DNA of 64,000 nucleotides, taken from Sphaerisporangium corydalis (lineage in GTDB: Bacteria > Actinomycetota > Actinomycetes > Streptosporangiales > Streptosporangiaceae). How positions within the stretch are numbered: the first letter of the stretch is position 1; every line of letters starts with the position of its first letter. The notes under the pieces were generated by a model, which worked only from the letters and a program-made list of their open reading frames with translations, was not told the origin of the DNA and made no database searches. Shown here piece by piece: positions 30,889 to 44,096 of this stretch. Location: the NCBI RefSeq assembly GCF_025506355.1, contig NZ_JANZYP010000055.1, positions 1-64,000 on the forward strand. The letters run 5' to 3'. The position numbers were made by a program, and so were the translations under genes.

Positions 30889-32631
30889 TCACGCCGCCCG
30901 GACGGGCCGGTAGTCCGGCCGCCACATCGTCTCCTGGACCCGTTCGACGGGGTCGCCCACCTCGGCGCGGGCCAGGCCCTCTTCGGCCGCCTTCCTGGCC
31001 ACCGCGACCGCCACGGTCGCCGAGACCTCCCGCAGGTCGTCGACCTGAGGGAGCAGCGAGGCGCCAGGGGCGGTCACGTCCACCATCCCGCCGACGGCCT
31101 CGGCGGCGGCCTGGAGCATGCCGTCGCTGACCCGCCGCGCCCGCGAGACGATCACGCCGAGCCCGAGGCCCGGGTACAGCAGGGCGTTGTTGGCCTGGGC
31201 GATGGCGTAGGTGACCCCGTGGTAGGTGACCGGACCGACCGGGATGCCGGTGGCGACCAGGGCCCGGCCGCCGGTCCACCGGATCAGGTCCGCCGGCATC
31301 GCCTCGATGCGGGTGGTCGGGTTGGAGATCGGGAAGATGACCGGCCTCTCGACGCCGGCGGCCATGGCCCGCACGATCTCCTCGGTGAAGGCGCCGTGCG
31401 CGGTGGAGGTGCCCAGCAGCATCGTCGGACGCACCCGGCCGACGACCTCGCCCAGCCCCGCGCCGCCGCCGTCCCGCGCCCAGCCGGCGACCTCGGCGGC
31501 CGGCCGGGCGTAGGGGACCTGGAAGTCGCGCAAGCCGGGCATGTCGCCGGTCAGCAGCCCCTGCCTGTCGACCGCCCAGATCCGGCGGGTCGCCTCCTCG
31601 GGGGACAGGCCGTCGCGGACCATCGCGTCGCGAAGCTGGTCGGCGATCCCGATGCCCGCCGTGCCGGCGCCGAACACGATGATCCGCTGGTCGCGCATCG
31701 GCGTCCCGGTGACGCGCACGGCGCCCAGCATGGCGGCGAGCACGATGGCGCCGGTGCCCTGCATGTCGTCGTTGAAGGTGGAGATCCGGCCGGTGTACCG
31801 CGACAGGATGCGCCGGCCGTTGGAGGGGCCGAAGTCCTCCCAGTGCAGCATCGCCTCGGGGAACATGCGGGTCGCCGCCGAGACGTAGGCGTCGACGAAG
31901 TCGTCGTAGCGCCGCCCGCGTACGCGCGAGTGCCGGTTGCCGACGTACAGCGGGTCGTTGAGCAGCTTCTCGTTGTCGGTCCCGACGTCCAGCGCGACGG
32001 CGATGACGCGGGCGGGGTCGATCCCGGCGGCGGCGGTGTAGACGGCCAGCTTGCCGGTCGCGATGCCCGCGCCGCCGCCCACCCCCCAGTCGCCGATGCC
32101 GAGGATCTCCTCGGCGTCGGAGGCCACGATCAGGTCGACGTCTCCGGGGCCCATGCCGAGGTTGGCGAAGGCGTGCCCGACCCCCTCGGCGTCGTCGATC
32201 GACAGGTAGACGCCCCCCGGGCGGCGGTACTCCTGGCTGTAGCCCTCGATCGCCTGGGCGATCGTCGGGTCGTAGACGATCGGCAGCATCTCCCGCAGGT
32301 GGTCGGTGAGCAGCCGGTAGAAGAGCACCTCGTTGCGGTCGCGCAACGCGGTCAGGTGGACGTTCTTCAGCAGGTCGGTCGGCTGCGCCAGGTACTGCGC
32401 GTACGCGCGGCGCGCCTGTTCCTCCAGCGTCTCGACCACCGGCGGGACCAGCCCTTCGAGGCCCAGTTCCTCGCGTTCGCGCGGGCTGAAGGCGGTGCCC
32501 TTGTTCAGCAGGGGGTTCTCCAGAACGGTGAGGCCCCGCCCCGGGGTGACGTAGCCCCCGTCGGGGTCCTCGGCGAACCCTCGGTGGTGCGCCCCGTCCG
32601 GCCGTGCGTCCTTGGCAGGCGACATCGTCAT
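30889..32631 (-). CDS. NAD-dependent malic enzyme
   Basis: A 580-residue malic enzyme of the large, SfcA/MaeA-like type. It has YDPTIAQAIEGYSQEYRRP, GTDNEKLLNDPLYVG and the metal-binding EDFGPSNGRRILSRY with STFNDDMQGTGA. The nucleotide-binding VFGAGTAGIGIA follows, then VIFPISNPT. It decarboxylates malate to pyruvate. The start is ATG 32631 or 32625 (M-T-M). A GGGACGGGG purine run lies upstream. It heads a two-gene operon with fumC, and its promoter region carries a 12-bp palindrome, hinting at a repressor. Confidence 0.93.
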   Translation of the reverse strand: MTMSPAKDARPDGAHHRGFAEDPDGGYVTPGRGLTVLENPLLNKGTAFSPREREELGLEGLVPPVVETLEEQARRAYAQYLAQPTDLLKNVHLTALRDRNEVLFYRLLTDHLREMLPIVYDPTIAQAIEGYSQEYRRPGGVYLSIDDAEGVGHAFANLGMGPGDVDLIVASDAEEILGIGDWGVGGGAGIATGKLAVYTAAAGIDPARVIAVALDVGTDNEKLLNDPLYVGNRHSRVRGRRYDDFVDAYVSAATRMFPEAMLHWEDFGPSNGRRILSRYTGRISTFNDDMQGTGAIVLAAMLGAVRVTGTPMRDQRIIVFGAGTAGIGIADQLRDAMVRDGLSPEEATRRIWAVDRQGLLTGDMPGLRDFQVPYARPAAEVAGWARDGGGAGLGEVVGRVRPTMLLGTSTAHGAFTEEIVRAMAAGVERPVIFPISNPTTRIEAMPADLIRWTGGRALVATGIPVGPVTYHGVTYAIAQANNALLYPGLGLGVIVSRARRVSDGMLQAAAEAVGGMVDVTAPGASLLPQVDDLREVSATVAVAVARKAAEEGLARAEVGDPVERVQETMWRPDYRPVRAA

Positions 32632-32716
32632 CCCCGTCCCTCGGCGTCGGCCCGCCCCGCTGGCGGCGGGCTCCCGTACTGGCCCTTGCCCGCCCCGCCC
32701 CCGTGAACGCGGATCA

Positions 32717-32734
32717 ATCATAAAAAGTACTTTT
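32717..32734 (-). promoter_or_regulatory. Candidate malic enzyme promoter with abutting palindrome
   Basis: On the minus strand a TATGAT -10-like hexamer (32722-32717) is preceded directly by the perfect 12-bp palindrome AAAAGTACTTTT (32723-32734). The palindrome would lie in the promoter spacer, an ideal repressor site. This A+T-rich patch stands out in the otherwise G+C-rich 450-base gap 32632-33081. The rest of that gap shows no gene. Confidence 0.55.
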
Positions 32735-33081: not shown

Positions 33082-34020
33082 ATGGTGACGCCAACAAACC
33101 ATGACATTCCTGAGGAAGCACGTCCGACGCGATCAGGTGCGCCGTACTGGAGCAGGCTACGTCCGCCGATCTTCGCGGCCACCGCCGCCGTGCTGCTGGC
33201 GTCCGGCGGCATAGGCGCGGCCGCCGCGTCGGCGGCGTCGGCGCCCGCGCCCGTACCGACGCCGACGGCGAGCGAGACGCCGTCGGAGACCCCCAGCGCG
33301 ACCCCCAGCGAGACACCGACCGACACCCCGACCGAGACTCCCACCGAGACCCCGACGGACACGCCGACCGAGACCCCGACCGAGGTCCCCGAGACCCCCG
33401 CCCCGGTCGTCAAGATCCCCGCGATGGGCGCGCTGGCGTCCATCGGCGCGATGCACGGCGAGTTCGCCGTCGCGTCGGAGGACGGCTGCGCCTCGGTGAC
33501 CGTGGTCACCCAGACCGGGCAGGCGACCGCCGTCGCCGAGGACTCGATCACCGTGACCAGCCGCGACGGGTACGCCAAGACGTACGCGGTCGGCGACGAC
33601 ACCCGGGTCGTCACCGGGCGCCGGGGGGCCGAGAAGATCAAGCAGGACGACTGGGTGTCGGTGACCGCCGCCACCGAGAACGAGACGGCGAACGCCGCCT
33701 ACGTCTTCGACCTGACCAGGCCAAGCAGGAACCTCTACAGGACCAAGGGCTGGTGGTACTCCGGCGTGACCCGGTCGGGCAAGCTCAGGTGGCGCGCGCC
33801 CGCCGCCTGTCCCACGCCCTCGGTCACGCCCACCCCGACGCTGAGCGTGACGCCGCCGGAGACGCCCCCCGCGACCCCGTCCGAGACGCCCACCGTCACC
33901 CCGCCCGAGACGCCGACCGTGACCCCGTCCGAGACGCCCAGCGTGCCGCCCTCGGAGACCCCCGCGCCCGAGGCGACGCCCACGGTGACCGTGACGGTGA
34001 CCGTGCCGCCCAGCCCCTGA
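33082..34020 (+). CDS. Secreted Thr-Pro-rich protein with central small beta domain
   Basis: A 312-residue protein (ATG 33082 or GTG 33085; GGAGG upstream). One hydrophobic segment (about 28-53, ending ASAASA) acts as signal or anchor. It is followed by a low-complexity ETPTDTP-type stalk (55-110) made of 12-bp DNA repeats. A central domain follows (about 120-220, with TGQATAVAEDSITVTSRDG and YAVGDDTRVV strands) resembling DUF5666/OB-like folds. A second TP-rich tail (240-312) ends TVTVTVPPSP. No sorting motif is present. Probably an envelope protein of unknown role. It is convergent with the CDP-alcohol phosphatidyltransferase gene. Confidence 0.75.
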   Translation: MVTPTNHDIPEEARPTRSGAPYWSRLRPPIFAATAAVLLASGGIGAAAASAASAPAPVPTPTASETPSETPSATPSETPTDTPTETPTETPTDTPTETPTEVPETPAPVVKIPAMGALASIGAMHGEFAVASEDGCASVTVVTQTGQATAVAEDSITVTSRDGYAKTYAVGDDTRVVTGRRGAEKIKQDDWVSVTAATENETANAAYVFDLTRPSRNLYRTKGWWYSGVTRSGKLRWRAPAACPTPSVTPTPTLSVTPPETPPATPSETPTVTPPETPTVTPSETPSVPPSETPAPEATPTVTVTVTVPPSP

Positions 34021-34054: not shown

Positions 34055-34843
34055 TCAGTGCCTCTTGGAGTGCTGCAACGGCCGCGGTACGGGACCCCCG
34101 TGCCGCGGCCGTGGGCGTTCGTACGCCCGGGCGCGCTCCTGCCAGAGCCACCCGACGTCCCGGCCGAAGGACCACACCAGCGACGCCAGCGCCACCGCGA
34201 CCAGGCCGGCGGCGACCGGCGGCGGTGCCACACCGGAGCCTGCGGCCACCAGGATGATCCCCTGCGTCGCCGCCACGGTCTTGCGGGCGAAGCTCGGCGG
34301 CAGGGGCGCCCGCAGCCAGGGCGCCGCCCAGGCGGCCGCCGCGAAGGCGTACCGCATGGCGCCGATCGCCAGCACCCACAGGCCGACCGACCGGGCCACG
34401 AAGACGCTCAGCACCAGGATCAGGAAGGCGTCGACCTCCATGTCGAAGCGCGCCCCGAGCGCCGACGCGGTGCCGGTCCGCCGCGCCACGTGGCCGTCGA
34501 CCGCGTCCAGGACGAGCGCCACCGTGGCCAGCACGACGATGAACGCGATCGGCGCCTCCCGGCCCATCCGGTCGGTGGTCACCAGCGCGGTGACACCTCC
34601 GACCAGTTCGGCGCGCGCCAGGGTGACCAGGCCGGCCGGTCCCAGTGACCGGGTGTTGGACCGGAGCAGGGCACAGGTCAGGATGACCGAGAGGACGACG
34701 GCGTAGGCGGTGCCGGCGAGCCAGCCCGCGGGGCACAGCCCCACACCCACCCACAGCAGGGCGAGCAGCACTATCTGCGCCCCCACCCCCGCGGCCGGCT
34801 CACGTACCGAAACCCCCGTGCCTCGCCAATCCAGTGTGGTCAC
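34055..34843 (-). CDS. CDP-alcohol phosphatidyltransferase-family membrane protein
   Basis: A 262-residue integral membrane protein with about six helices. The CDP-alcohol phosphotransferase signature DGHVARR-x5-ALGARFDMEVD fits DGx2ARx8Gx3Dx3D with all three Asp metal ligands present. These enzymes join an alcohol such as inositol phosphate, glycerol phosphate or another polyol to a CDP-linked lipid or polyol. It is divergent from the MDR-dehydrogenase gene that heads the pterin-like cluster, so it may belong to that pathway, for example by attaching a product to a lipid. The alcohol substrate cannot be inferred. Confidence 0.87.
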   Translation of the reverse strand: MTTLDWRGTGVSVREPAAGVGAQIVLLALLWVGVGLCPAGWLAGTAYAVVLSVILTCALLRSNTRSLGPAGLVTLARAELVGGVTALVTTDRMGREAPIAFIVVLATVALVLDAVDGHVARRTGTASALGARFDMEVDAFLILVLSVFVARSVGLWVLAIGAMRYAFAAAAWAAPWLRAPLPPSFARKTVAATQGIILVAAGSGVAPPPVAAGLVAVALASLVWSFGRDVGWLWQERARAYERPRPRHGGPVPRPLQHSKRH

Positions 34844-34949
34844 CGAGCCTCCTGTTCCGCCTGTCTGGATACAATGCGTCCCACATCATGGCCCTGATCG
34901 TGCCCGAAAATAGCCTTTTTGCTGTGATTAAAGGAGGTCGAGGACGCCG

Positions 34950-35942
34950 ATGGAGCGTGAAGCACGCGCCTTCTGGCTCCGATCTCCCGGTCAGGGAGAG
35001 ATCCGGCCGGTGACCCTGCGGCCGCCCGCCGACGGCGAGGTGCTGGTGCGCACCCTGTACTCCGGGGTCAGCAGGGGCACCGAGACGCTCGTCTTCCGCG
35101 GCGGCGTGCCGCCGAACCAGTACGAGGTCATGCGGGCCCCCTTCCAGGATGGCCTGTTCCCCGGACCGGTCAAGTACGGCTACCTCAATGTGGGCGTCGT
35201 CGAGCAGGGACCGCCCGCCCTGCGGGGCCGCACGGTCTTCTGCCTCTACCCCCACCAGACCCGGTACGTGGTCCCGGCCGAGGCCGTGACCCCGGTGCCG
35301 GAGTCGGTGCCCGCCGCGCGCGCGGTGCTGGCCGGCACCGTGGAGACCGCCGTGAACGCGCTGTGGGACGCGGCGCCGCTGGTCGGCGACCGGATCGCCG
35401 TCGTCGGGGCCGGCATGGTCGGCTGCTCGGTGGCCAAGGTGCTCGCCGGGTTCCCCGGCGTCCGGGTGCAGCTCGTCGACGTGGACCCCTCGCGGGCCGC
35501 CGTCGCCGCCGCGATCGGCGTCGGCTTCGCCACCCCCGAGGCGGCCGAGGGGGAGTGCGACATCGTCGTGCACGCCAGCGCCACCGAGGCCGGGCTCGCG
35601 CGGTCCCTGGAGCTGCTCGCCTTCGAGGGCACCGTCATCGAGCTGAGCTGGTACGGTGACCGGCAGGTCAGCGTGCCGCTGGGCGAGGCCTTCCACTCCC
35701 GCCGCCTGGTCGTGCGCGGCAGCCAGGTGGGCGCGGTGTCCCCGGCGCGGCGGGGACGGCGGACCTTCGCCGACCGGCTGGCGCTGGCCCTGCGGCTGCT
35801 CGCCGACCCGGCGTTCGACGCGCTGGTCACCGGCGAGTGCGCGTTCGCCGACCTGCCCGAGGTGCTGCCCCGCCTGGCCGCGGGTGAGCTGCCCGGTTTG
35901 TGCCACCGGGTCGTCTATGACGCGGCCGAGCATTTCAACTGA
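34950..35942 (+). CDS. MDR-superfamily dehydrogenase
   Basis: A 330-residue oxidoreductase with an AAAGGAGG-like site about ten bases before ATG 34950. The N-terminal part has LYSGVSRGTETLVFRGG, as in the BchC/threonine-dehydrogenase-like branch of zinc-type alcohol dehydrogenases. The Rossmann loop VVGAGMVGCSVAKVL and the NAD-selecting Asp in QLVDVDPSRAA follow. The classical structural zinc cysteine quartet is missing. It probably oxidises an alcohol or reduces a carbonyl in the pathway encoded by the following genes. It is the first plus-strand gene of the cluster. Confidence 0.85.
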   Translation: MEREARAFWLRSPGQGEIRPVTLRPPADGEVLVRTLYSGVSRGTETLVFRGGVPPNQYEVMRAPFQDGLFPGPVKYGYLNVGVVEQGPPALRGRTVFCLYPHQTRYVVPAEAVTPVPESVPAARAVLAGTVETAVNALWDAAPLVGDRIAVVGAGMVGCSVAKVLAGFPGVRVQLVDVDPSRAAVAAAIGVGFATPEAAEGECDIVVHASATEAGLARSLELLAFEGTVIELSWYGDRQVSVPLGEAFHSRRLVVRGSQVGAVSPARRGRRTFADRLALALRLLADPAFDALVTGECAFADLPEVLPRLAAGELPGLCHRVVYDAAEHFN

Positions 35943-36027
35943 ACGCCTCAGGGCTCGAATCCGTTTGTTCAGGTGAGGTCCGCCGCAGGACCGATCCACC
36001 GCCGTGCGCCCTGGAGGGTGAATCCGA

Positions 36028-36426
36028 TTGTTCAGCATCACCGTTCGCGACCATCTGATGGTCGCGCACAGCTTCCACGGCGAGGTCTTCGGCCCGGCGC
36101 AACGGCTGCACGGGGCGACGTTCGTGGTGGACGCGACCTTCCGCCGTGCCGAGCTCGACACCGACAACATCGTGGTCGACATCGGGCTGGCCACCCGGGA
36201 GCTCGGTGCCGTGCTGGGCGATCTCACCTACCGCAACCTGGACGACGAGCCGGCGTTCGCCGGGATCAACACCACCACCGAGTTCCTGGCCAAGACCATC
36301 GCCGACCGGCTCGCCGGCCGGGTGGGCGCGGGCGCGCTGGGCGAGCAGGCCCGCGGGCTGGCCGGGATCACCGTCACCCTCCACGAGTCGCACGTCGCCT
36401 GGGCGAGCTACGAGCGCCCGCTGTGA
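36028..36426 (+). CDS. PTPS/QueD-like protein with degenerate active site
   Basis: A 132-residue T-fold protein. TTG 36028 is used because GGAGGG lies nine bases upstream and MFSITVRDH is the usual first strand. Relationship to 6-pyruvoyl/6-carboxy-tetrahydropterin synthase is shown by AHSF (His14), RLHG (His28), [15 protein letters not shown] and the substrate-anchoring Glu in [12 protein letters not shown]. However, the metal-binding HGH is HGA here (Ala30), the catalytic Cys before it is absent, and the Asp-His of LDH-x-NL is Thr67-Tyr68. It may therefore bind a pterin or pyrimidine without the normal lyase chemistry. Its stop overlaps the next gene's start (GTGA). Confidence 0.8.
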
Positions 36427-37523
36427 CCACCGCCGAGCGCGCCGTCCACGTCGTCCTGCCGGGCGACGTGGACGACGCGGCGGTGCCGAGCGGCGGCAAC
36501 ACCTACGACCGCCGCGCCTGCCAGGGCCTGGCCGAGGCCGGCTGGGCGGTGCGCGAGACCGCCGTCCACGGCGCCTGGCCGCGACCCGGGCAGAACGCCC
36601 GCGCGCGGGTCGGCCGCACGCTCGCCGGCCTCGCCGACGGCGAGATCGTCCTGCTGGACGGGCTGGTCGCCTGCGGGATCCCCGAGGTCGTCGTCCCGCA
36701 CGCGCGCCGGCTGCGCCTCGCGGTCCTGGTCCACCTGCCCCTGGCCGACGAGACGGGCCTCGACCCCGCGACGGCGGCCGAGCTCGACGCCGCCGAGCGG
36801 GCGACCCTGCGCGCGGCCGGCGCGGTCCTTTCGACCAGCCCGTGGGCCGGGCGCCGGCTGGCCGCCCACCACGGCCTGGACCCCGGCCGGGTGCACGTCG
36901 TCCCGCCCGGCACCGACCCCGCCCCGCTCACCCCCGGCACCGACGGCGCGTCCGAACTGCTCTGCGTCGCGTCGGTGACGCCGCGCAAGGGCCAGGACCT
37001 GCTGGTCCACGCTCTCAAGGAAGTGATCGACCTGCCGTGGAACTGCGTGCTCGCGGGCCCGCTGCGCCGTGAGGCCGCCTACGCCGAGCGGCTCCGCACC
37101 CTGATCGGGGACCTCGGGCTGGACGGCCGGGTGGAGCTCGCCGGGCCGCGCACCGCCGGGCGGCTCGCGGAGAGCTACGCCGCCGCCGACCTGGTGGTGC
37201 TGGCCTCCCGCGCCGAGACCTACGGGATGGTGGTGACCGAGGCGCTCGCGCGCGGGATCCCCGTGCTGGCGACCGCCGTGGACGCGGTGCCGGAGACCCT
37301 CGGGCACGCGCCCGGCGGCGCCGTGCCCGGACTGCTGGTCCCCCCTGACGACCCGGCGGCGTTCGCCGGCGCGCTGCGCCGCTGGCTCGGCGACCCCGGC
37401 CTGCGCGACCGGCTCAGGACCGCCGCCCGTGAACGGCGCGAGGCGCTGGACGGATGGGACGTGACCTCGCGCGGCCTGGGCGCCGTGCTGGACCTGCTCA
37501 GGTCACGGGTGCGTGCGGCATGA
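36423..37523 (+). CDS. GT4-family glycosyltransferase
   Basis: A 366-residue GT-B glycosyltransferase from GTG 36423. An N-terminal [18 protein letters not shown] donor/acceptor domain motif is followed by [13 protein letters not shown]. The nucleotide-sugar domain has [14 protein letters not shown] and the EX7E-type motif [13 protein letters not shown] typical of retaining GT4 enzymes. It transfers a sugar from a nucleotide sugar in the cytosol. Coupled by 4-base overlaps to both neighbours (PTPS-like and methyltransferase), it probably glycosylates the cluster's product. Confidence 0.9.
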
Positions 37524-38398
37524 GCGAACCGGAGTTCTCCCCCGAATGGCTGGCGGTGCGCGAGCACGCCGACGCCGCCTCCCGCGCGGCACGGCTGCTC
37601 CTCCTCCTGCGCCCCCACCTGGTACGCAGCCCGGACGCGGCCGACCCGGGACCCGGGCGCGCCCACCCCGCGGCCCCGCCGCTGGTCATCCGCGACCTCG
37701 GCTGCGGCACCGGCGCCATGGGACGCTGGCTCGCCGGGCGGCTGCCCGGCCCGCAGAAGTGGATCCTGCACGACCGCGACCCCGAGCTGCTCGCCCGCGC
37801 GGTCACCGGCTTCGACGGCCCCGCCGAGGACGGCGGCACGGTGACGGTGGTCGCCGAGCGGCGGGACGTCACCCTGCTGAGCGCCGCCGAGCTGGCCGGC
37901 ACCTCGCTGGTGACCGCCTCCGCCCTGCTCGACCTGCTCACCGCCGAGGAGGTGGACCGCCTCGCCGGGGCCTGCGCCGGGTCCGGCACCCCCGCGCTGC
38001 TGACCCTGTCGGTCGCCGGCCGGGTCACGCTCGACCCCGCCGACCCGCTCGACGGCGACATCGCCGCCGCCTTCGACGCCCACCAGCGCCGCAGCACCGG
38101 CGGGCGCCGCCTGCTCGGGCCGGACGCCACCGCCGCCGCCACCGCGTCCTTCGAGGGCCGTGGCGCGGTGGTGCACACGCTGCCCAGCCCGTGGCGGCTC
38201 GGCGCCGCCGACGCCGCCCTGACCGCCGAATGGCTGCGCGGCTGGGTCGGCGCCGCCTGCGAGCAGCGGCCGGAGCTGGCCCCGGCGGCCGAGGCCTACC
38301 TGCGGCGCAGGCTGGAGGCGTGCGAGGCCGGCGAGCTGCGGGTCGTGGTCCAGCACGACGACCTGCTGGCGCTCCCGGCGGGAGGTGCGGGCCGATGA
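37520..38398 (+). CDS. Class I SAM-dependent methyltransferase-like protein
   Basis: A 292-residue protein starting at ATG 37520 within the glycosyltransferase stop. The Rossmann SAM loop DLGCGTGAMGRWLAG (about residues 64-78) and the acidic strand LHDRDPELL are clear. SLVTASALLDLLTAEEV takes the place of motif IV. It could methylate the cluster's small molecule or an acceptor. It overlaps the flippase-like gene by ATGA. The N-terminal 30 residues are helical, as in small-molecule methyltransferases. Confidence 0.87.
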   Translation: MSEPEFSPEWLAVREHADAASRAARLLLLLRPHLVRSPDAADPGPGRAHPAAPPLVIRDLGCGTGAMGRWLAGRLPGPQKWILHDRDPELLARAVTGFDGPAEDGGTVTVVAERRDVTLLSAAELAGTSLVTASALLDLLTAEEVDRLAGACAGSGTPALLTLSVAGRVTLDPADPLDGDIAAAFDAHQRRSTGGRRLLGPDATAAATASFEGRGAVVHTLPSPWRLGAADAALTAEWLRGWVGAACEQRPELAPAAEAYLRRRLEACEAGELRVVVQHDDLLALPAGGAGR

Positions 38399-39630
38399 CC
38401 CGGCGGATGTGGCCCTGGCTGCGCATGTTCCTCGCGGTGGCCATCCTGGGCGTGCTGGTGTGGCGCCTCGGCACCGGCGCGTTCGTCGACGGGCTGCGGC
38501 TGGTCGACGGCCCGGCGGTGGCCGCCGCGCTCGGCATCGGCCTGCTCACCACCGTGCTCAGCGTCTGGCGGTGGAGCCTGGTGGCCAACCGGCTCGGCCT
38601 GCCGCTGCCATTGCCTGCGGCCGTCGCCGACTACTATCGCGCCCTGTTCCTCAACGCCGTCCTTCCGGCCGGCGTGCTCGGCGACGCGCACCGCGCCGTC
38701 CGGCACGGCCGGCAGGTCGGGGACGTCGGCCGAGGCGTCCGCGCCGTCGTGCTCGAACGGGCCGGCGGCCAGATCGTCCTGATCGCCGCGGGGATGACGG
38801 TCCTGCTCGCCGAACCGGCGCTGGCCGCCGCGGTGGCCCGCGACATCCTGCCGGGCCTCGGTGTCACGGCCGCCGTGCTGGGCGGGCTCGCCGCCGCCGG
38901 CGTGCTCCTGGTCCGGGGCCGCTGGGGCTCCGCCGTCGCCAGGCTGCGCCGCGCGGCCGCGACGTCCCTGGCGGACGCGCGCCTCGGCCTGTTCGCCCGG
39001 GACGCCTGGCCGGGGGTGCTGGCGCTGTCCGCCGCCACCCTGCTCGGGCACCTCTCGCTGTTCCTGGTAGCCGCGCGCACCGCCGGGTCTTCCGCGCCGG
39101 CCGGGCAGCTCCTCCCGCTGATGCTGCTGGCGCTGCTGGTGATGGGGCTGCCGGTGAACGTCGGCGGGTGGGGGCCGCGCGAGGCGTTCTCCGCGGTGGC
39201 GTTCGGCGCCCTGGGGCTGGGCGCCAGGCAGGGGCTCACCGCCGCCGTCGTGTACGGGGTGCTCACGTTCGTCTCCAGCCTGCCCGGCGCGCTGGTGCTG
39301 CTCTCCCGCCTGGGCTCCCGGTCCACCCGGCCCGCGACCGGCGCGGCACCCGTACGGGCGCCGGAGACCGCTCCCGTACGGACGCCGGAGACCGTTCCCG
39401 GGCGGCGGACGGAGGACGGACGGACGCTCTGGCCGGGCGCCGAGGCGGAACCGGTCTTCACCCTGGACGTGGAACCGGCCTTCGCCCTGGGCGCCGCGCC
39501 CGGGAGGAGTCTCGGGACGCGCGGTGAGGGGCGAAGACCGTTCGGGTCAGCGGAGGACGGCGAGATGGTCGCCGAACGACGCGACCAGGCTGTCGAGCAC
39601 GCCCTTCCCCTTTCCCGCCGAGGCCAGTGA
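38395..39630 (+). CDS. Flippase-like (lysylphosphatidylglycerol synthase TM-type) membrane protein
   Basis: A 411-residue protein. Residues 1-310 form about eight membrane helices of the LPG synthase transmembrane-region family: VLSVWRWSLVANRLGL, RALFLNAVLPAGVLGDAHR, VVLERAGGQ and LPVNVGGWGPREAF. Stand-alone members are thought to move glycolipids or other lipid-linked molecules across the membrane. The last 100 residues are a low-complexity Pro/Glu/Arg tail with repeated VRAPETAPVRTPETVP. The final 84 bases overlap the convergent creatininase gene. It likely exports or flips the cluster's product. Confidence 0.85.
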   Translation: MTRRMWPWLRMFLAVAILGVLVWRLGTGAFVDGLRLVDGPAVAAALGIGLLTTVLSVWRWSLVANRLGLPLPLPAAVADYYRALFLNAVLPAGVLGDAHRAVRHGRQVGDVGRGVRAVVLERAGGQIVLIAAGMTVLLAEPALAAAVARDILPGLGVTAAVLGGLAAAGVLLVRGRWGSAVARLRRAAATSLADARLGLFARDAWPGVLALSAATLLGHLSLFLVAARTAGSSAPAGQLLPLMLLALLVMGLPVNVGGWGPREAFSAVAFGALGLGARQGLTAAVVYGVLTFVSSLPGALVLLSRLGSRSTRPATGAAPVRAPETAPVRTPETVPGRRTEDGRTLWPGAEAEPVFTLDVEPAFALGAAPGRSLGTRGEGRRPFGSAEDGEMVAERRDQAVEHALPLSRRGQ

Positions 39631-40269
39631 CGGACTGCCGATGACGCCCGACTCGGTGTACGCCGCCATGCCCAGCGTGAGCAGGTGCCTGCGGTCCTCG
39701 GCCGGCGAGTCGCTCGACTCGTACCCGGGCCTGACCAGCCGGGGATGGGCGTGCAGCAGGATGGAGGTCTCCAGTTCGCCCGCGTGCATGTCGCTCCACG
39801 CCGAGGTTTCCAGGCCGCCCGCCGCCCGCGCCGCGTCCCAGTCCGCAGGGCCGGGGAACAGCGCCATGCGCCGGCCGTCGGCGGAGGCCTCCTGGACGAC
39901 GTTGCCGAGGACGTAGTTCCCGCCATGACCGTTCACGATGACGAGCCTGGTGATCCCGGACCTGCGCAACGAGTCCGCGATGTCCCGCACGACGGCGTAC
40001 AGCGTCGCGGCGGAGATGCTCACCGTCCCCGGCCACGCCGTGTGCTCGTGCTCGTGCGAGCACGAGATCGTGACCGGCGGCAGGTGCAGCACGGGGTGGG
40101 CGGCGGCGATCGCCGCGGAGATCGTGGCGGCGATGACCGTGTCGGTGGCCAGCGGCAGGAAAGGCCCGTGCTGCTCGAAGCTTCCGACGGGCAGCAGCGC
40201 CACCTCGGCGTGCCGGTCCCGTTCGTCGCTTGTCGTCCACATTGGCAGGAGATAGGCGAAGTCGTTCAT
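39547..40269 (-). CDS. Creatininase-family amidohydrolase (ArfB/MftE-like)
   Basis: A 240-residue metal hydrolase. Metal ligands of the family are all visible: Glu32 and His34 in GSFEQHG, Asp43 in LATDT, His115 in NGHGGN and Glu167 in HAGELETS. The family contains creatinine amidohydrolase, the mycofactocin peptidase MftE and archaeal ArfB, which removes the formyl group from the GTP-derived pyrimidine FAPy. Because a GTP cyclohydrolase II paralogue is encoded divergently 108 bases away, ArfB-like deformylation is the best contextual guess. It is the only minus-strand gene within the cluster. Confidence 0.88.
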   Translation of the reverse strand: MNDFAYLLPMWTTSDERDRHAEVALLPVGSFEQHGPFLPLATDTVIAATISAAIAAAHPVLHLPPVTISCSHEHEHTAWPGTVSISAATLYAVVRDIADSLRRSGITRLVIVNGHGGNYVLGNVVQEASADGRRMALFPGPADWDAARAAGGLETSAWSDMHAGELETSILLHAHPRLVRPGYESSDSPAEDRRHLLTLGMAAYTESGVIGSPSLASAGKGKGVLDSLVASFGDHLAVLR

Positions 40270-40377
40270 AGACTGCTAGCCTCTGCCGCCGTTCGCGAAC
40301 GCGCAACTCACGGTACCGCCGGGAGGGAAGTGGCGCGGGCGTCCGGGGGGCCGGCAGCGACAGATGAGGAGGGGCAG

Positions 40378-41076
40378 ATGGGTGATCACGGCATCGAGGA
40401 CGAGGACATCGCCGAGGCGGATCTGGTGACCCGCCGAGGCACCTTCCGCACGGTGGCGTTCCGGGACCCGGTCGACAGGAACGAGCACTTAGCCCTCGTC
40501 TTCGGCGAGACGGCGCGCGAGGAGGCCCTGGTCCGGGTGCACTCGGAATGCGTCACGGGCGACATCTTCGCCGCGATGCGGTGCGAGTGCGGCGACCAGC
40601 TCGACGCCGCGCTCGACGCGATCGTCCACGAGGGCAGCGGCGTCCTGGTCTACCTGCGCGGGCACGAGGGCCGGGGCATCGGCCTGGTCGCCAAGGTGCG
40701 CACCCACATGCTGCAGGACGACCACGGGCTGGACACCGTCGACTCGGCCACCGTACTCGGCCTGCCGGTGGACACCCGGGACTTCGGCGCGGCGGCCCGG
40801 GTGCTGAAGTACCTGGGCGTCCGGTCGGTCCGCCTGATGTCCAACAACTCCGACAAGATCCGCGCCCTCGAGGGGCACGGGATCCGGGTGGCGGCCCGCG
40901 TCCCCCTGCTGGTGAAGGCGAACGAGCACAACATCCGCTACCTCACCGCCAAGCGCGACCGCCTCGGCCACGACCTCCCCCACCTCGGCACCCCCGTCCC
41001 CGGTCACCAGGGCACCGCCGCCGCGGGCCACCCGGGCACCCCCGTCGCCGGTCACCAGGGCACCGCCGGTGGCTGA
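40378..41076 (+). CDS. GTP cyclohydrolase II paralogue, atypical
   Basis: A 232-residue protein with GAGGAGG upstream of ATG 40378. It has the full RibA fold: zinc cysteines 58, 69 and 71 (HSECVTGD, MRCECG), YLRGHEGRGIGL and NNSDKIRALEGHGI. The segment KVRTHMLQDDHGLDT carries His110-Met111 where Escherichia coli RibA has the catalytic Tyr105 (KIRAYALQ). In Streptomyces coelicolor SCO6655, loss of this Tyr makes the enzyme stop at the formylated product FAPy. The same is expected here, with the creatininase-like protein removing the formyl group. A C-terminal tail of 24-bp repeats is extra. It overlaps the phosphatase gene by 8 bases. Confidence 0.85.
   Translation: MGDHGIEDEDIAEADLVTRRGTFRTVAFRDPVDRNEHLALVFGETAREEALVRVHSECVTGDIFAAMRCECGDQLDAALDAIVHEGSGVLVYLRGHEGRGIGLVAKVRTHMLQDDHGLDTVDSATVLGLPVDTRDFGAAARVLKYLGVRSVRLMSNNSDKIRALEGHGIRVAARVPLLVKANEHNIRYLTAKRDRLGHDLPHLGTPVPGHQGTAAAGHPGTPVAGHQGTAGG
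40987..41076. repeat. 24-bp tandem repeats at the 3' end of the cyclohydrolase gene
   Basis: Three units (40987-41010, 41011-41034, 41035-41058) plus a partial fourth encode GTPVPGHQ, GTAAAGHP, GTPVAGHQ, GTAGG. They extend the protein beyond the normal RibA end and reach into the start of the next gene. Confidence 0.85.
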
Positions 41077-41884
41077 CCCGTCCGGCCACCTCCCGCTGCT
41101 GCCCGTGGCCGAAGAGGCGGTGGCGATCGCGCATCGCATCATCCGGTCCCGGGGGCCGGGCTCGGTCACCGCCAAGGGCGAGCGCGACATGGTGACCGAC
41201 GTCGACCTCGCCGTGGAGGACGCGGTGCGCGGGTTCCTGTCCCGCGAGACCCCCGGGATCGGGATCCTCGGCGAGGAGCACGGGCACACCGGCCCGGCCG
41301 GGGACGCGCTGTGGTGGGCCCTGGACCCGGTGGACGGCACGGCCAACTTCGCCCGGGGCATCCCGCTGTGCGGGGTGTCGCTCGCCCTGGTCCAGGGGCG
41401 GCGCAGCGTGCTGGCCGCCATCGACCTGCCGTTCCTCGGCGCCCGGTACACCGCGGCGGCCGGGCACGGCGCGTACGCGGGCCGGGAGCGCATCCGCGCC
41501 TCGGCGGCCGGCGCGCTGTCCGAGGCGGTGATCTCGATCGGGGACTTCGCCGTCGGCGACGGCGCGGAGGCCAGGAACCGGGTCCGCGTCACCCTGCTGG
41601 CCCTGCTGGGCGCGCGGGCGCAGCGCATCCGGATGATCGGGACCGCGGCCATCGACCTGGCGTGGGTGGCGCAGGGCAGGCTCGACGCGTCGGTCATCCT
41701 GGCGAACATGCCGTGGGACACGATGGCGGGCGTCCTGCTGGTCCGCGAGGCGGGCGGGGTCGTGCTCGACCAGGACGGCACCGACCACACCGCCGACTCC
41801 ACCGCCACCATCGCGGTCTGTGCGGGCCTGCGCGACCACCTCATGCCCCTCCTCACCCAGGCCCGCGCCCAGCACCCGGACTGA
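41069..41884 (+). CDS. Inositol monophosphatase-family phosphatase
   Basis: A 271-residue magnesium-dependent phosphatase from GTG 41069, inside the end of the cyclohydrolase gene. Motifs are complete: ILGEEHG, WALDPVDGTANFARG and MPWDTMAGVLLVREAGG. Family members hydrolyse inositol phosphates, histidinol phosphate or other sugar phosphates. Tight coupling to the cyclohydrolase paralogue suggests it removes the ribosyl 5'-phosphate or a related phosphate from a pathway intermediate. It is convergent with recD2 with a 16-base gap. Confidence 0.9.
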   Translation: MADPSGHLPLLPVAEEAVAIAHRIIRSRGPGSVTAKGERDMVTDVDLAVEDAVRGFLSRETPGIGILGEEHGHTGPAGDALWWALDPVDGTANFARGIPLCGVSLALVQGRRSVLAAIDLPFLGARYTAAAGHGAYAGRERIRASAAGALSEAVISIGDFAVGDGAEARNRVRVTLLALLGARAQRIRMIGTAAIDLAWVAQGRLDASVILANMPWDTMAGVLLVREAGGVVLDQDGTDHTADSTATIAVCAGLRDHLMPLLTQARAQHPD

Positions 41885-41900: not shown

Positions 41901-44096
41901 TCAGGTGCGCAGGGCCAGGGCCAGGCGGGCGGTCAGGCCGGTGTTCCTGGGGTGGCCCGCGCGGTGGACGGCCAGTTCGAGTGCCTCGCGGTCGCCGACC
42001 AGGACCACCCACGCCTTCGCCCGCGTGACCAGCGTGTACAGCAGGCTGCGGCGCAGCATCACTCCGCCGGCCTCGGCCACGACGGGCGCGACCACGAAGG
42101 GGTACTCGCTGCCCTGGGAGCGGTGGACGCTGATCGCGTACGCGTGGGTCAGCTCGTCGGTCTCGCCGAAGGCGTACTCCACCGTGCGGCCCTCGTCGGT
42201 GCGGATCTCCAGCCGCCGCTCCAGCGGGTCCACGGCGGTGACCGTCGCGCTCTCGCCGTTGAAGACGCCCTTGTCGTAGTTGTTGCGGATCGGCATGACC
42301 CGGTCGCCCACCCGGAAGACCGACGCCCCCGACCAGTGCTCGGCGTCGCCCTCGCGGGCCGGATTCAGCCGCTCCTGCAACCGGCGGCCCAGCTCGGCGG
42401 TGCCCGTCTCGCCCTTGCGCATCGGGCACAGCACCTGGACCTGGTCGGCGCCGATGTTCTGCTTGCGGGGGATCGCCTCGGTCGCCAGGTGGATCACCCG
42501 GTCGGCGACCAGCGCCGGGTCGTCCAGCTCCTCGAACCAGAAGCCGCCCCCGCCGGGCAGCTCCGGCGGCTCCCCGGCCCGGATGCGGTGGGCGGCCCGG
42601 ACGATGCCGCTGTCCTGCGCCTGCCGGAAGACGTGGGTCAGCCGGACGCGCGGGACCTCCGGCACGCCCAGCAGGTCGGCCAGCACGCTGCCCGGCCCGA
42701 TGCTGGGCAGCTGGTCGCCGTCGCCGACCAGCAGGAGGTGGCCCCCCGACGGGATCGCGGCGGCCAGCCGGGTCGCCATCTGCAAATCGAGCATCGACGC
42801 CTCATCCACCACGACGAGGTCGGCCCGCGCGGGGGACTCCTGGAACAGGGTGCCGTCGTCGGGGTCAGTGCGGTGGGCGAGCATGCGGTGCAGCGTCATC
42901 GCGGGCAGGCCGGTGAGCTCCGACAGGCGCTTGGCGGCCTTGCCCGTGGGGGCGGTGAGCGTCACCGAGCCGCCCATCGCCCGCACCGTCGCGGCGATCA
43001 CCTTCACGGTGTGGCTCTTGCCGCACCCGGGGCCGCCGGTCAGGACGGACACGGTGCTGGTCAGCGCGAGGTTCACCGCCGCGCGCTGGTCGGGGTGCAG
43101 TGTTTGGTCCTCGGCGTAGGGGCGGTGCGGCAGCGTCGAGCGGGCCCCGCACAGCCTGGCGAGGTTCGCCGCCAGCGCGACCTCGCGGCCGTGCCGCTCC
43201 TTGGAGTACACCACCGACTGCCCCTGGCCGGCCGGGGATGCCTCCACGACCACCCGGCGTTCGGCGGCCAGCCCGTCGACGGCCCGCTCGACCGGCTCCC
43301 GGTCCTGCTCGACCAGGGCCGCCGCCTGGGCCAGCAGCACCGGCAGCGGCACGAAGCAGTGGCCGTCGCGGGCCGCCGCGGCCTCCAGCCGGTCCAGGAC
43401 CGCCGCCCTGATCCGCCGGGGACTGTTCTCCGGCACCCCCGACCGCAGCGCGATGCGGTCGGCCGTGTGGAAGGCGATGCTCCTGACCTGGCCGATCAGC
43501 TGGTACGGGTCGCCGGTGAGCACCTCGCGCGCCGCCGCGCCGTACACCTGGTAGATCTTGGTCGCGAGCAGGGGGCTGATGCCGAAGCCCTGGAGGACGA
43601 CCATCAGGGCGGCGATCTCCTTCTGCTCCGCCCAGGCCTGGACGATCTGCTCCTGGCGCACGGCGCCGATGTTGACCACGTCGCGCAGGCGGCCTGGCTC
43701 GGTGTCGATGACCGTGAGCGTGCTCGCGCCGAAGTGGCTGACGATGGCGTGGGCGAGCCTCGGGCCGATGCCGCGGATCAGGCCCGAGCCCAGGTAGAGC
43801 GAGATGGCGCGCACGGTCGAGGGGACGACCCGCTCGCACCGCCCGACCACCAGGCGGTGGCCGTGGCGCGGATGGTCGTCCCACTCGCCCGTCAGCCGCA
43901 GCGTCTCGCCGGGCTGCACCCCGGCGAGCGCCCGGCCCGAGGCGACGAAGCCCGGCAGGCCGTCGGCGCTCATCCGCGCGACGGTGTACTCGTCATCGCG
44001 GACGTACACCAACCGGTCGACGGAGACCTCCATCTCCGCCGCGTACGGCTTCGCGAGCACGGTCACCGCGGGCTCCCATCGTGTGCGGCTCGTCAC
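41901..44096 (-). CDS. recD2: RecD2-like SF1B DNA helicase
   Basis: A 731-residue helicase. An N-terminal OB-like strand set is followed by helix-hairpin-helix repeats (GSGLIRGIGPRLAHAIV, LRDVVNIG). The SF1 motor has Walker A TGGPGCGKS (353-361), TLTAPTGKAAKRL, Walker B VVVDEASMLD, LLVGDGDQLPSIGPG, LTHVFRQ and the C-terminal HRSQGSEYPFV / YTLVTRAKAWVVLVG motifs. RecD2 is a 5'-3' helicase that acts without RecBC, and is linked to genome stability. Length and order fit well. It is a single gene transcribed toward the IMPase gene. Confidence 0.93.
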   Translation of the reverse strand: MTSRTRWEPAVTVLAKPYAAEMEVSVDRLVYVRDDEYTVARMSADGLPGFVASGRALAGVQPGETLRLTGEWDDHPRHGHRLVVGRCERVVPSTVRAISLYLGSGLIRGIGPRLAHAIVSHFGASTLTVIDTEPGRLRDVVNIGAVRQEQIVQAWAEQKEIAALMVVLQGFGISPLLATKIYQVYGAAAREVLTGDPYQLIGQVRSIAFHTADRIALRSGVPENSPRRIRAAVLDRLEAAAARDGHCFVPLPVLLAQAAALVEQDREPVERAVDGLAAERRVVVEASPAGQGQSVVYSKERHGREVALAANLARLCGARSTLPHRPYAEDQTLHPDQRAAVNLALTSTVSVLTGGPGCGKSHTVKVIAATVRAMGGSVTLTAPTGKAAKRLSELTGLPAMTLHRMLAHRTDPDDGTLFQESPARADLVVVDEASMLDLQMATRLAAAIPSGGHLLLVGDGDQLPSIGPGSVLADLLGVPEVPRVRLTHVFRQAQDSGIVRAAHRIRAGEPPELPGGGGFWFEELDDPALVADRVIHLATEAIPRKQNIGADQVQVLCPMRKGETGTAELGRRLQERLNPAREGDAEHWSGASVFRVGDRVMPIRNNYDKGVFNGESATVTAVDPLERRLEIRTDEGRTVEYAFGETDELTHAYAISVHRSQGSEYPFVVAPVVAEAGGVMLRRSLLYTLVTRAKAWVVLVGDREALELAVHRAGHPRNTGLTARLALALRT

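Follow-up and report, generated by a model that had tools for sequence, protein, structure and literature searches.

What small molecule is made by a group of nine genes that sets a GTP cyclohydrolase II (GCH II) paralogue and a creatininase-family hydrolase beside a glycosyltransferase and membrane proteins? The question is raised by positions 34055-41884 of contig NZ_JANZYP010000055.1 of Sphaerisporangium corydalis (assembly GCF_025506355.1), whose first 64,000 nucleotides are the stretch analysed here, hereafter the window. We conclude that these genes belong to a conserved accessory cluster of actinomycetes with relatives in Pseudomonadota. We further propose, with moderate confidence, that the cluster encodes an accessory small-molecule pathway of the type marked by PTPS-IV, a subfamily of the 6-pyruvoyltetrahydropterin synthase (PTPS) family, leading in six steps from GTP to a product placed at the cell envelope.

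In this scheme, the cyclohydrolase paralogue would open GTP and halt at formamidopyrimidine (FAPy), because the tyrosine responsible for deformylation is replaced by histidine (step 1). The creatininase-family hydrolase would then deformylate FAPy to 2,5-diamino-6-ribosylamino-4(3H)-pyrimidinone 5'-phosphate, giving a separate enzyme to a reaction that canonical GCH II performs itself (step 2). The phosphate would be removed at some stage by an inositol monophosphatase (IMPase) family protein or another host phosphatase (step 3), a BchC-like dehydrogenase and a zinc-less T-fold protein may turn the pyrimidine into a pterin-like ring or side chain (step 4), and a glycosyltransferase of family GT4 and a methyltransferase would decorate the pterin-like compound (step 5). 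Lastly, a CDP-alcohol phosphatidyltransferase, a PF03706 protein and an LtaS/LtaP-like enzyme would link it to lipid, flip it across the membrane and bring it to the envelope (step 6). At the level of sequence, steps 1 and 2 draw support from an association with one residue, reportedly assigned its role in a homologue; we infer steps 3 to 6 from protein families and co-occurrence, and a pterin or an open pyrimidine as the product. The genes in the window are as follows.

34055-34843, minus strand: CDP-alcohol phosphatidyltransferase family membrane protein (Pfam PF01066, E 4.3e-10)
34950-35942, plus strand: medium-chain dehydrogenase/reductase (MDR) superfamily dehydrogenase, BchC-like (NCBIfam bchC, 55 bits against a cut-off of 291)
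36028-36426, plus strand: PTPS-IV type T-fold protein with a TTG start, homologue of SCO6650 (PDB 3d7j, E 3.7e-69)
36423-37523, plus strand: GT4 family glycosyltransferase (Pfam PF00534, E 7.5e-30)
37520-38398, plus strand: class I S-adenosylmethionine-dependent methyltransferase of an unnamed family (PF13649, below cut-off)
38395-39630, plus strand: LPG_synthase_TM (PF03706) flippase-like membrane protein (Pfam, E 4.1e-28)
39547-40269, minus strand: creatininase-family metallohydrolase, proposed FAPy deformylase (PF02633, E 6.5e-64)
40378-41076, plus strand: GTP cyclohydrolase II paralogue, proposed to form FAPy (PF00925, E 7.8e-61)
41069-41884, plus strand: IMPase-family phosphatase, an optional component proposed to dephosphorylate an intermediate (PF00459, E 8.3e-50)

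The grouping of these genes is more than chance, because the MDR, PTPS and GT4 genes keep a single order and direction in 116 of the 123 loci that hold all three. Conservation of the neighbourhood across actinomycetes had been set beforehand as a check by an earlier note on this DNA, and it was borne out in 40 loci selected by their PTPS gene, where GT4 was present at 40 and MDR at 39. This set, the fairer one, was hand-picked from 39 actinobacterial genomes: 38 of the 57 PTPS-matching genomes (of 394) in a class-wide sample, from which the S. corydalis genome itself, 15 genomes of one genus, G582, G608 and G485 were left out, and one from a phylum-wide sample. Counts in it are lower bounds, as some stretches stop at contig ends. 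LPG_synthase_TM was found at 33/40 loci, the methyltransferase at 28/40, the CDP-alcohol transferase at 21/40 and an LtaS-like gene at 15/40; the corresponding figures for the cyclohydrolase, a RibD_C (riboflavin-type reductase) gene, the creatininase and the IMPase were 26/40, 17/40, 14/40 and 2/40.

A second set came from searching 84,980 species, each represented by one genome, for the creatininase; the best 80 of 573 related stretches were used, and the set is by construction biased towards that gene. These best 80 are mostly from Streptomyces, with others from Actinomadura, Thermomonospora, Sphaerisporangium, Umezawaea, Pseudonocardia, Nocardiopsis and further genera. A PTPS gene lay in the stretch in 70 of them, always accompanied by MDR and GT4 and in 69/70 by the CDP-alcohol transferase; the 10 stretches without PTPS were excluded from the 70. 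Creatininase and RibD_C occurred together at none of the 40 PTPS-selected loci and at 15 of these 70. Relatives were also found on plasmids, including those of Rhizobium, Agrobacterium, Methylosinus, Palleronia and Thiodictyon; 17 of 20 plasmid matches were taken in (H4, H5 and H9 were left out), with MDR at 15/17, GT4 at 14/17 and RibD_C without creatininase at 11/17. The IMPase, which had been counted as part of the pathway, is present in the window but is not a general component of the cluster (2/40, 1/17 and 3/70 loci in the three sets). Screening 73 loci for additional conserved neighbours yielded, for the most part, families confined to certain taxa or groups that were frame shadows. Within the genus too the cluster is accessory, as MDR occurs in 5 of 11 genomes (G000, which is S. 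corydalis, G001, G004, G009 and G010), and the same five carry a close cyclohydrolase (78% or more). The creatininase was found in the four relatives among these five, the other six genomes lying outside that search.

The cyclohydrolase of the window falls within the RibA family models (PF00925, 204.9 bits against a cut-off of 23.3; TIGR00505, 208.3 against 205.85), and in the alignment it has His at the Tyr 'switch' position (KVRTHMLQDD), Tyr105 in the E. coli enzyme. It therefore lacks the tyrosine of canonical deformylating GCH II and shares with SCO6655-type enzymes both the family and a non-Tyr switch, whereas the residue in SCO6655 is Met. Spoonamore et al. reportedly found in 2006 that SCO6655 halts at FAPy, with Met120 as the equivalent switch. 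A second cyclohydrolase copy in the same genome, at G000:C46, is of the Tyr type, and with the non-Tyr switch it led us to reject a canonical riboflavin duplicate as the role of the window copy.

The residue follows the creatininase. In all 93 creatininase clusters whose stretch includes a cyclohydrolase, the switch is non-Tyr (72 Met, 16 His, 3 Leu and 2 Gln; one record, L017/L167, is counted twice, and 17 of the 93 also hold RibD_C), as it is in the window with its His. Tyr is found in 18/18 RibD_C-only clusters, in 6/6 control copies and in 22/22 further cyclohydrolases from whole genomes. In locus L180, where the switch is Leu and the creatininase lies outside the stretch, the creatininase gene is about 13 kb from the PTPS gene on the same contig. 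Genomes G744, G635 and G574 keep the core, have no creatininase at E 1e-30, and carry a single cyclohydrolase of the Tyr type. In Streptomyces loci (S. coelicolor is not among them), the Met-type cyclohydrolase lies with an SCO6650-type PTPS gene, and these Met-type enzymes form a separate branch of the non-Tyr clade. Across that clade the switch is Met, His, Leu or Gln, and Tyr in 0/58 rows; such a wandering residue fits a position freed from deformylating duty.

The partner hydrolase conserves E-Q-H-G, T-D-T, N-G-H-G-G-N and D-M-H-A-G-E, the metal-site motifs of the creatininase family. It had been called 'ArfB-like', a description that stands for the proposed chemistry and fails by model, with 38.7 bits against the 180 of NF033501. 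The nearest score is to MftE (TIGR03964, 132.5 against 172 bits), and both ArfB and MftE were rejected as strict identities since the scores are under the cut-offs. The archaeal ArfA/ArfB route likewise opens GTP and deformylates in two steps, as proposed for the window; it differs in that the first enzyme of the window is a GCH II paralogue rather than GCH III, and in the hydrolase score just given. According to passages of a paper on BrbF (PMC9478397), this creatininase-family enzyme (SMc02977) deformylates FAPy in Sinorhizobium, in riboflavin synthesis, and the bacterial FAPy maker is called yet to be discovered. The window hydrolase belongs to the same family and would, by analogy, catalyse the same reaction; the FAPy-making partner of BrbF was still to be found, whereas the window has a candidate partner adjoining. 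A front end that forms FAPy and leaves deformylation to another enzyme is thus well supported as far as sequences can tell, because the switch residue tracks the creatininase and BrbF provides a precedent, and the earlier note's route from GTP through FAPy to a deformylated pyrimidine gains support on the same grounds. The cyclohydrolase and creatininase of the window are a candidate partnership of FAPy maker and deformylase, acting in another pathway than BrbF's. We found no description of this coupling between residue and hydrolase in the open-licence literature.

The same front end could serve as a second supply line for riboflavin or deazaflavin, on the model of archaea and the Sinorhizobium BrbF branch, with the cyclohydrolase and deformylase feeding 5-amino-6-ribitylaminouracil and the other genes decorating or secreting a flavin. 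The role of BrbF described in passages of PMC9478397 agrees with this, as does an unpublished remark tying PTPS-IV to F420 in passages of PMC5041015. RibD_C occurs in 29 of 57 PTPS-selected loci, and the one copy tested scores best against riboflavin-type reductase models; the argument that no riboflavin genes are near, so that the product is not a flavin, is therefore weaker than had been stated. On the other hand, the genome holds a Tyr-type cyclohydrolase elsewhere, and models of lumazine synthase and riboflavin synthase found no match among the nine proteins at the thresholds used. We know of no role for the MDR, T-fold and GT4 triad in known flavin synthesis, which also speaks against a flavin supply, and we consider this alternative unlikely.

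The T-fold protein belongs to PTPS-IV: its FGPAQ motif (F21-Q25) is invariant in 30/30 aligned proteins, and it matches SCO6650 (3d7j) over its full length (residues 1-132, E 3.7e-69). Aligned to 3i2b and 1b66, it reads HGA for HGH and LTY for LDH, so that the canonical PTPS/QueD residue set is absent, and its QueD score is below the cut-off (33.2 against 89.25 bits). The Ala of HGA stands at the position of the third zinc His, and the Tyr of LTY at that of the His in the Asp-His catalytic pair. A Thr-Glu pair kept with respect to 3i2b and 1b66, and a late Glu, are both invariant; we take them to be the base-binding, pterin-contacting positions. Passages of the AGeNNT paper (PMC5445326) describe PTPS-IV as a subfamily of COG0720 with the FGPAQ signature and with GCH II (PF00925) and RibD_C neighbours, and passages of PMC5041015 carry the F420 link as an unpublished remark. 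The window shares with that neighbourhood the FGPAQ motif and the GCH II neighbour, in addition to its closeness to the solved SCO6650; it differs in that a creatininase-family gene is present and cluster-type RibD_C is not. PTPS-IV stands without the rest of the cluster at two Streptomyces plasmid loci (L166, 10001-10426, plus strand; L210, 10001-10399, plus strand), each with MEKHLA-domain, cupin, MBL-fold and BTAD-regulator genes nearby, which gives the family a second context.

These enzymes might also end at a specialised metabolite that is soluble and secreted: an open-ring glycosylated diaminopyrimidine, made without closure of a pterin ring and with the membrane proteins serving export only. 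The missing catalytic residues of the T-fold protein agree with it, as do the patchy distribution (5/11 genus genomes), which resembles that of specialised metabolism, and the loci L190, L191 and L193, where only MDR, T-fold and GT4 lie within the stretch. The invariant Thr-Glu pair and late Glu, as pterin-contacting positions, argue against it, and the LtaS-like enzyme and CDP-alcohol transferase as partners fit lipid chemistry better than plain export. We regard an open-ring product as doubtful.

Under the proposed pathway, the redox step would fall to the MDR protein. It carries the NAD(P)-binding motif GAGMVG and no recognisable Cys/GHE zinc ligands of the usual MDR kind, and alcohol and polyol dehydrogenases came out on top of its profile search. 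Like the methyltransferase, it matches Pfam below cut-offs only, although both are coherent families across loci. The methyltransferase has no NCBIfam match; its AlphaFold2 model (predicted local distance difference test score, pLDDT, 89.1) matches class I methyltransferase structures, the fold search being unspecific. The IMPase-family protein is below the HisN cut-off, and HisN was rejected as its strict identity.

GCH I makes its ketose intermediate by Amadori rearrangement. A chemically neat reading would be that reduction by RibD_C followed by oxidation at C2' by the MDR protein yields the same ketose, with ring closure on the T-fold. Extended to the whole cluster, this would be a GCH I-independent pterin route in many actinomycetes and some Pseudomonadota: FAPy opening, a separate deformylase, RibD_C and BchC-like reduction and re-oxidation of the ribose chain standing in for the Amadori shift, and closure on the zinc-less T-fold. 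The pterin would be glycosylated, methylated, anchored to the envelope through a phospholipid linkage that the CDP-alcohol transferase makes, and passed on by the LtaS-like enzyme. We put this full route forward as a speculative possibility. Against this, RibD_C is lacking from the window and from many creatininase clusters, where the ribityl route would depend on a reductase of the host. Of the 17 RibD_C-family matches in the S. corydalis genome, the one on contig C80 comes closest to a rhizobial reductase of the cluster type, with an identity of only 28%. At 7/17 plasmid loci there is a cytochrome b561 family gene (for example L127, 13055-13582, minus strand, and L125, 12528-13085, plus strand, with five more), which adjoins RibD_C where annotated; the 40 and 70 actinobacterial loci counted have none. 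Given this gene, a lipid-linked pterin might perhaps act as an extracytoplasmic redox carrier.

For the fate of the product, the earlier note had offered export or lipid attachment; lipid attachment is favoured by an LtaS/LtaP-like partner encoded elsewhere in the genome, which it had overlooked. The CDP-alcohol transferase has the full motif of CDP-alcohol phosphatidyltransferases, D-x2-D-G-x2-A-R-x8-G-x3-D-x3-D, with its residues conserved. In many relatives, a protein annotated 'sulfatase' in rhizobial plasmids lies near this gene; two members tested have no Pfam or NCBIfam match. The model of the L019 member (mean pLDDT 66, the membrane part poor and the catalytic part better) is structurally nearest to LtaP (E 4.9e-11) and LtaS, at 12-15% identity only. 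Like LtaS and LtaP (4uop, 4uor), the partner is predicted to combine an N-terminal multi-helix membrane part, modelled with low confidence, with an alkaline-phosphatase-superfamily domain. GDH and ESYG motifs are conserved in the family, and a profile search recovered lipoteichoic acid (LTA) primase weakly (E 0.018).

No LtaS-like gene lies in the window; that of S. corydalis is at G000:C129:53169-54779 (minus strand). In four of the five cluster-bearing genus genomes the gene is away from the cluster or on another contig, and in G001 it adjoins the CDP-alcohol transferase (L240, from 1904, minus strand). The enzyme nevertheless tracks the cluster: it is present in 5/5 genus genomes with the cluster and 0/6 without (Fisher p 0.002, relatedness ignored), and among 31 genomes in 6/10 with MDR and 0/21 without (p 0.0003, relatedness ignored). 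This, alongside the CDP-alcohol transferase and the flippase-like protein, points to a lipid-linked, envelope-directed product. The three proteins suggest that the product is attached to lipid, flipped and passed on as a phospho-linked headgroup, the least certain part of the scheme.

Several observations weigh against the proposed pathway. In a GCH II tree of 104 rows (Streptomyces Met-type rows, from loci L027-L094 lacking RibD_C, were thinned to one in six, and L167, L215 and identical sequences were dropped), the non-Tyr rows form one clade (Shimodaira-Hasegawa-like approximate likelihood ratio test, SH-aLRT, 93), with one change each. Because all non-Tyr cyclohydrolases fall in this clade, the association between residue and creatininase may be a single event. 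A core-gene tree had 79 rows including the window, 71 with both traits, of which 12 were set 'absent' for both from whole-genome searches; 7/8 of the Streptomyces Met-type group and L131, L167, L173 and L202-L206 were left out. The two traits agree in 71/71 scored rows with 4 joint changes, and the test found only 3 supported independent pairs (p 0.25). The association is thus complete but without statistical independence. We know of no assay of a GCH II with His at the switch, and the hydrolase is below the cut-offs for ArfB, MftE and creatininase alike. RibD_C, needed by the ribityl route, is found neither in the window nor at any of the 14 creatininase loci among the 40. All 16 genomes tested have FolE (GCH I), so that pterin supply alone does not explain the pathway, and replacement of a missing FolE was rejected as its role. 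On the envelope side, the Fisher tests ignore relatedness, and the LtaS-like gene was not found in 4 of the 10 MDR-positive genomes. The methyltransferase, LPG_synthase_TM and CDP-alcohol transferase genes are found at only 28, 33 and 21 of the 40 PTPS-selected loci, so lipid attachment may not be universal among the clusters.

Could the locus instead be two unrelated modules that happen to adjoin, an envelope-lipid one (GT4, methyltransferase, CDP-alcohol transferase, flippase and LtaS-like enzyme) and a nucleotide-salvage one (cyclohydrolase, creatininase and IMPase)? In its favour, cyclohydrolase and creatininase are lacking at some loci that keep the core. The cyclohydrolase is nonetheless in the stretch at 26/40 PTPS-selected loci and at plasmid loci of a second phylum, even though such genes are scarce (one or two per genome in 19 genomes). 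The T-fold and GT4 genes overlap in the window, and MDR, the close cyclohydrolase and the LtaS-like gene are inherited together in the genus. We judge two separate modules very improbable.

The gene layout is as first described, eight coupled or closely spaced genes with a divergent CDP-alcohol transferase gene. All nine open reading frames are intact, at the coordinates listed above and in the families given. Overlaps of 4 bases join PTPS to GT4, GT4 to the methyltransferase and the methyltransferase to LPG_synthase_TM, and these four, which follow the MDR gene, seem to be coupled in translation as a single unit. An 8-base overlap links the cyclohydrolase and IMPase genes. The creatininase gene is closely spaced without translational coupling, since it lies on the opposite strand, tail-to-tail with the LPG_synthase_TM gene (84-base overlap), and its start is 108 bases from the divergent cyclohydrolase gene. 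The CDP-alcohol transferase gene is divergent from the MDR gene, with 106 bases between them.

How new is such a pathway? The earlier note had called it a candidate undescribed pathway. The PTPS-IV neighbourhood with GCH II and RibD_C is in print, in passages of PMC5445326, and SCO6650 is solved; these passages describe no pathway or product, 'creatinin' is absent from the main text of that paper, and we found no paper describing the pathway or product in the open-licence literature. The cluster is thus an orphan pathway already glimpsed in print. Nor did we find a description of the envelope partner there, though no search named that partner. The scheme would offer a concrete pathway for two orphan proteins, SCO6650 with its solved but unassigned structure and SCO6655, which reportedly forms FAPy, together with a matched deformylase, and adds an envelope-side partner that the S. 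corydalis genome encodes away from the cluster. It also provides a candidate type of answer to the question, raised in passages of the BrbF paper (PMC9478397), of which bacterial enzyme makes FAPy. Were the product a lipid-linked pterin, common soil bacteria would have a cell-envelope molecule of a new class.

Two other roles for the locus were rejected: riboswitch control, as no Rfam match was found in the window at the gathering threshold, and anti-phage defence, for which PADLOC gave only 2 weak matches, on the MDR and methyltransferase genes. Directly upstream of the cluster, at 33082-34020 (plus strand), the window encodes a proline/threonine-rich, probably secreted protein with SETPSETP-type repeats and no Pfam match. 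The flanks are otherwise ordinary, with a malic enzyme gene at 30889-32721 (minus strand) on one side and a RecD2-type helicase gene at 41901-44096 (minus strand) on the other.

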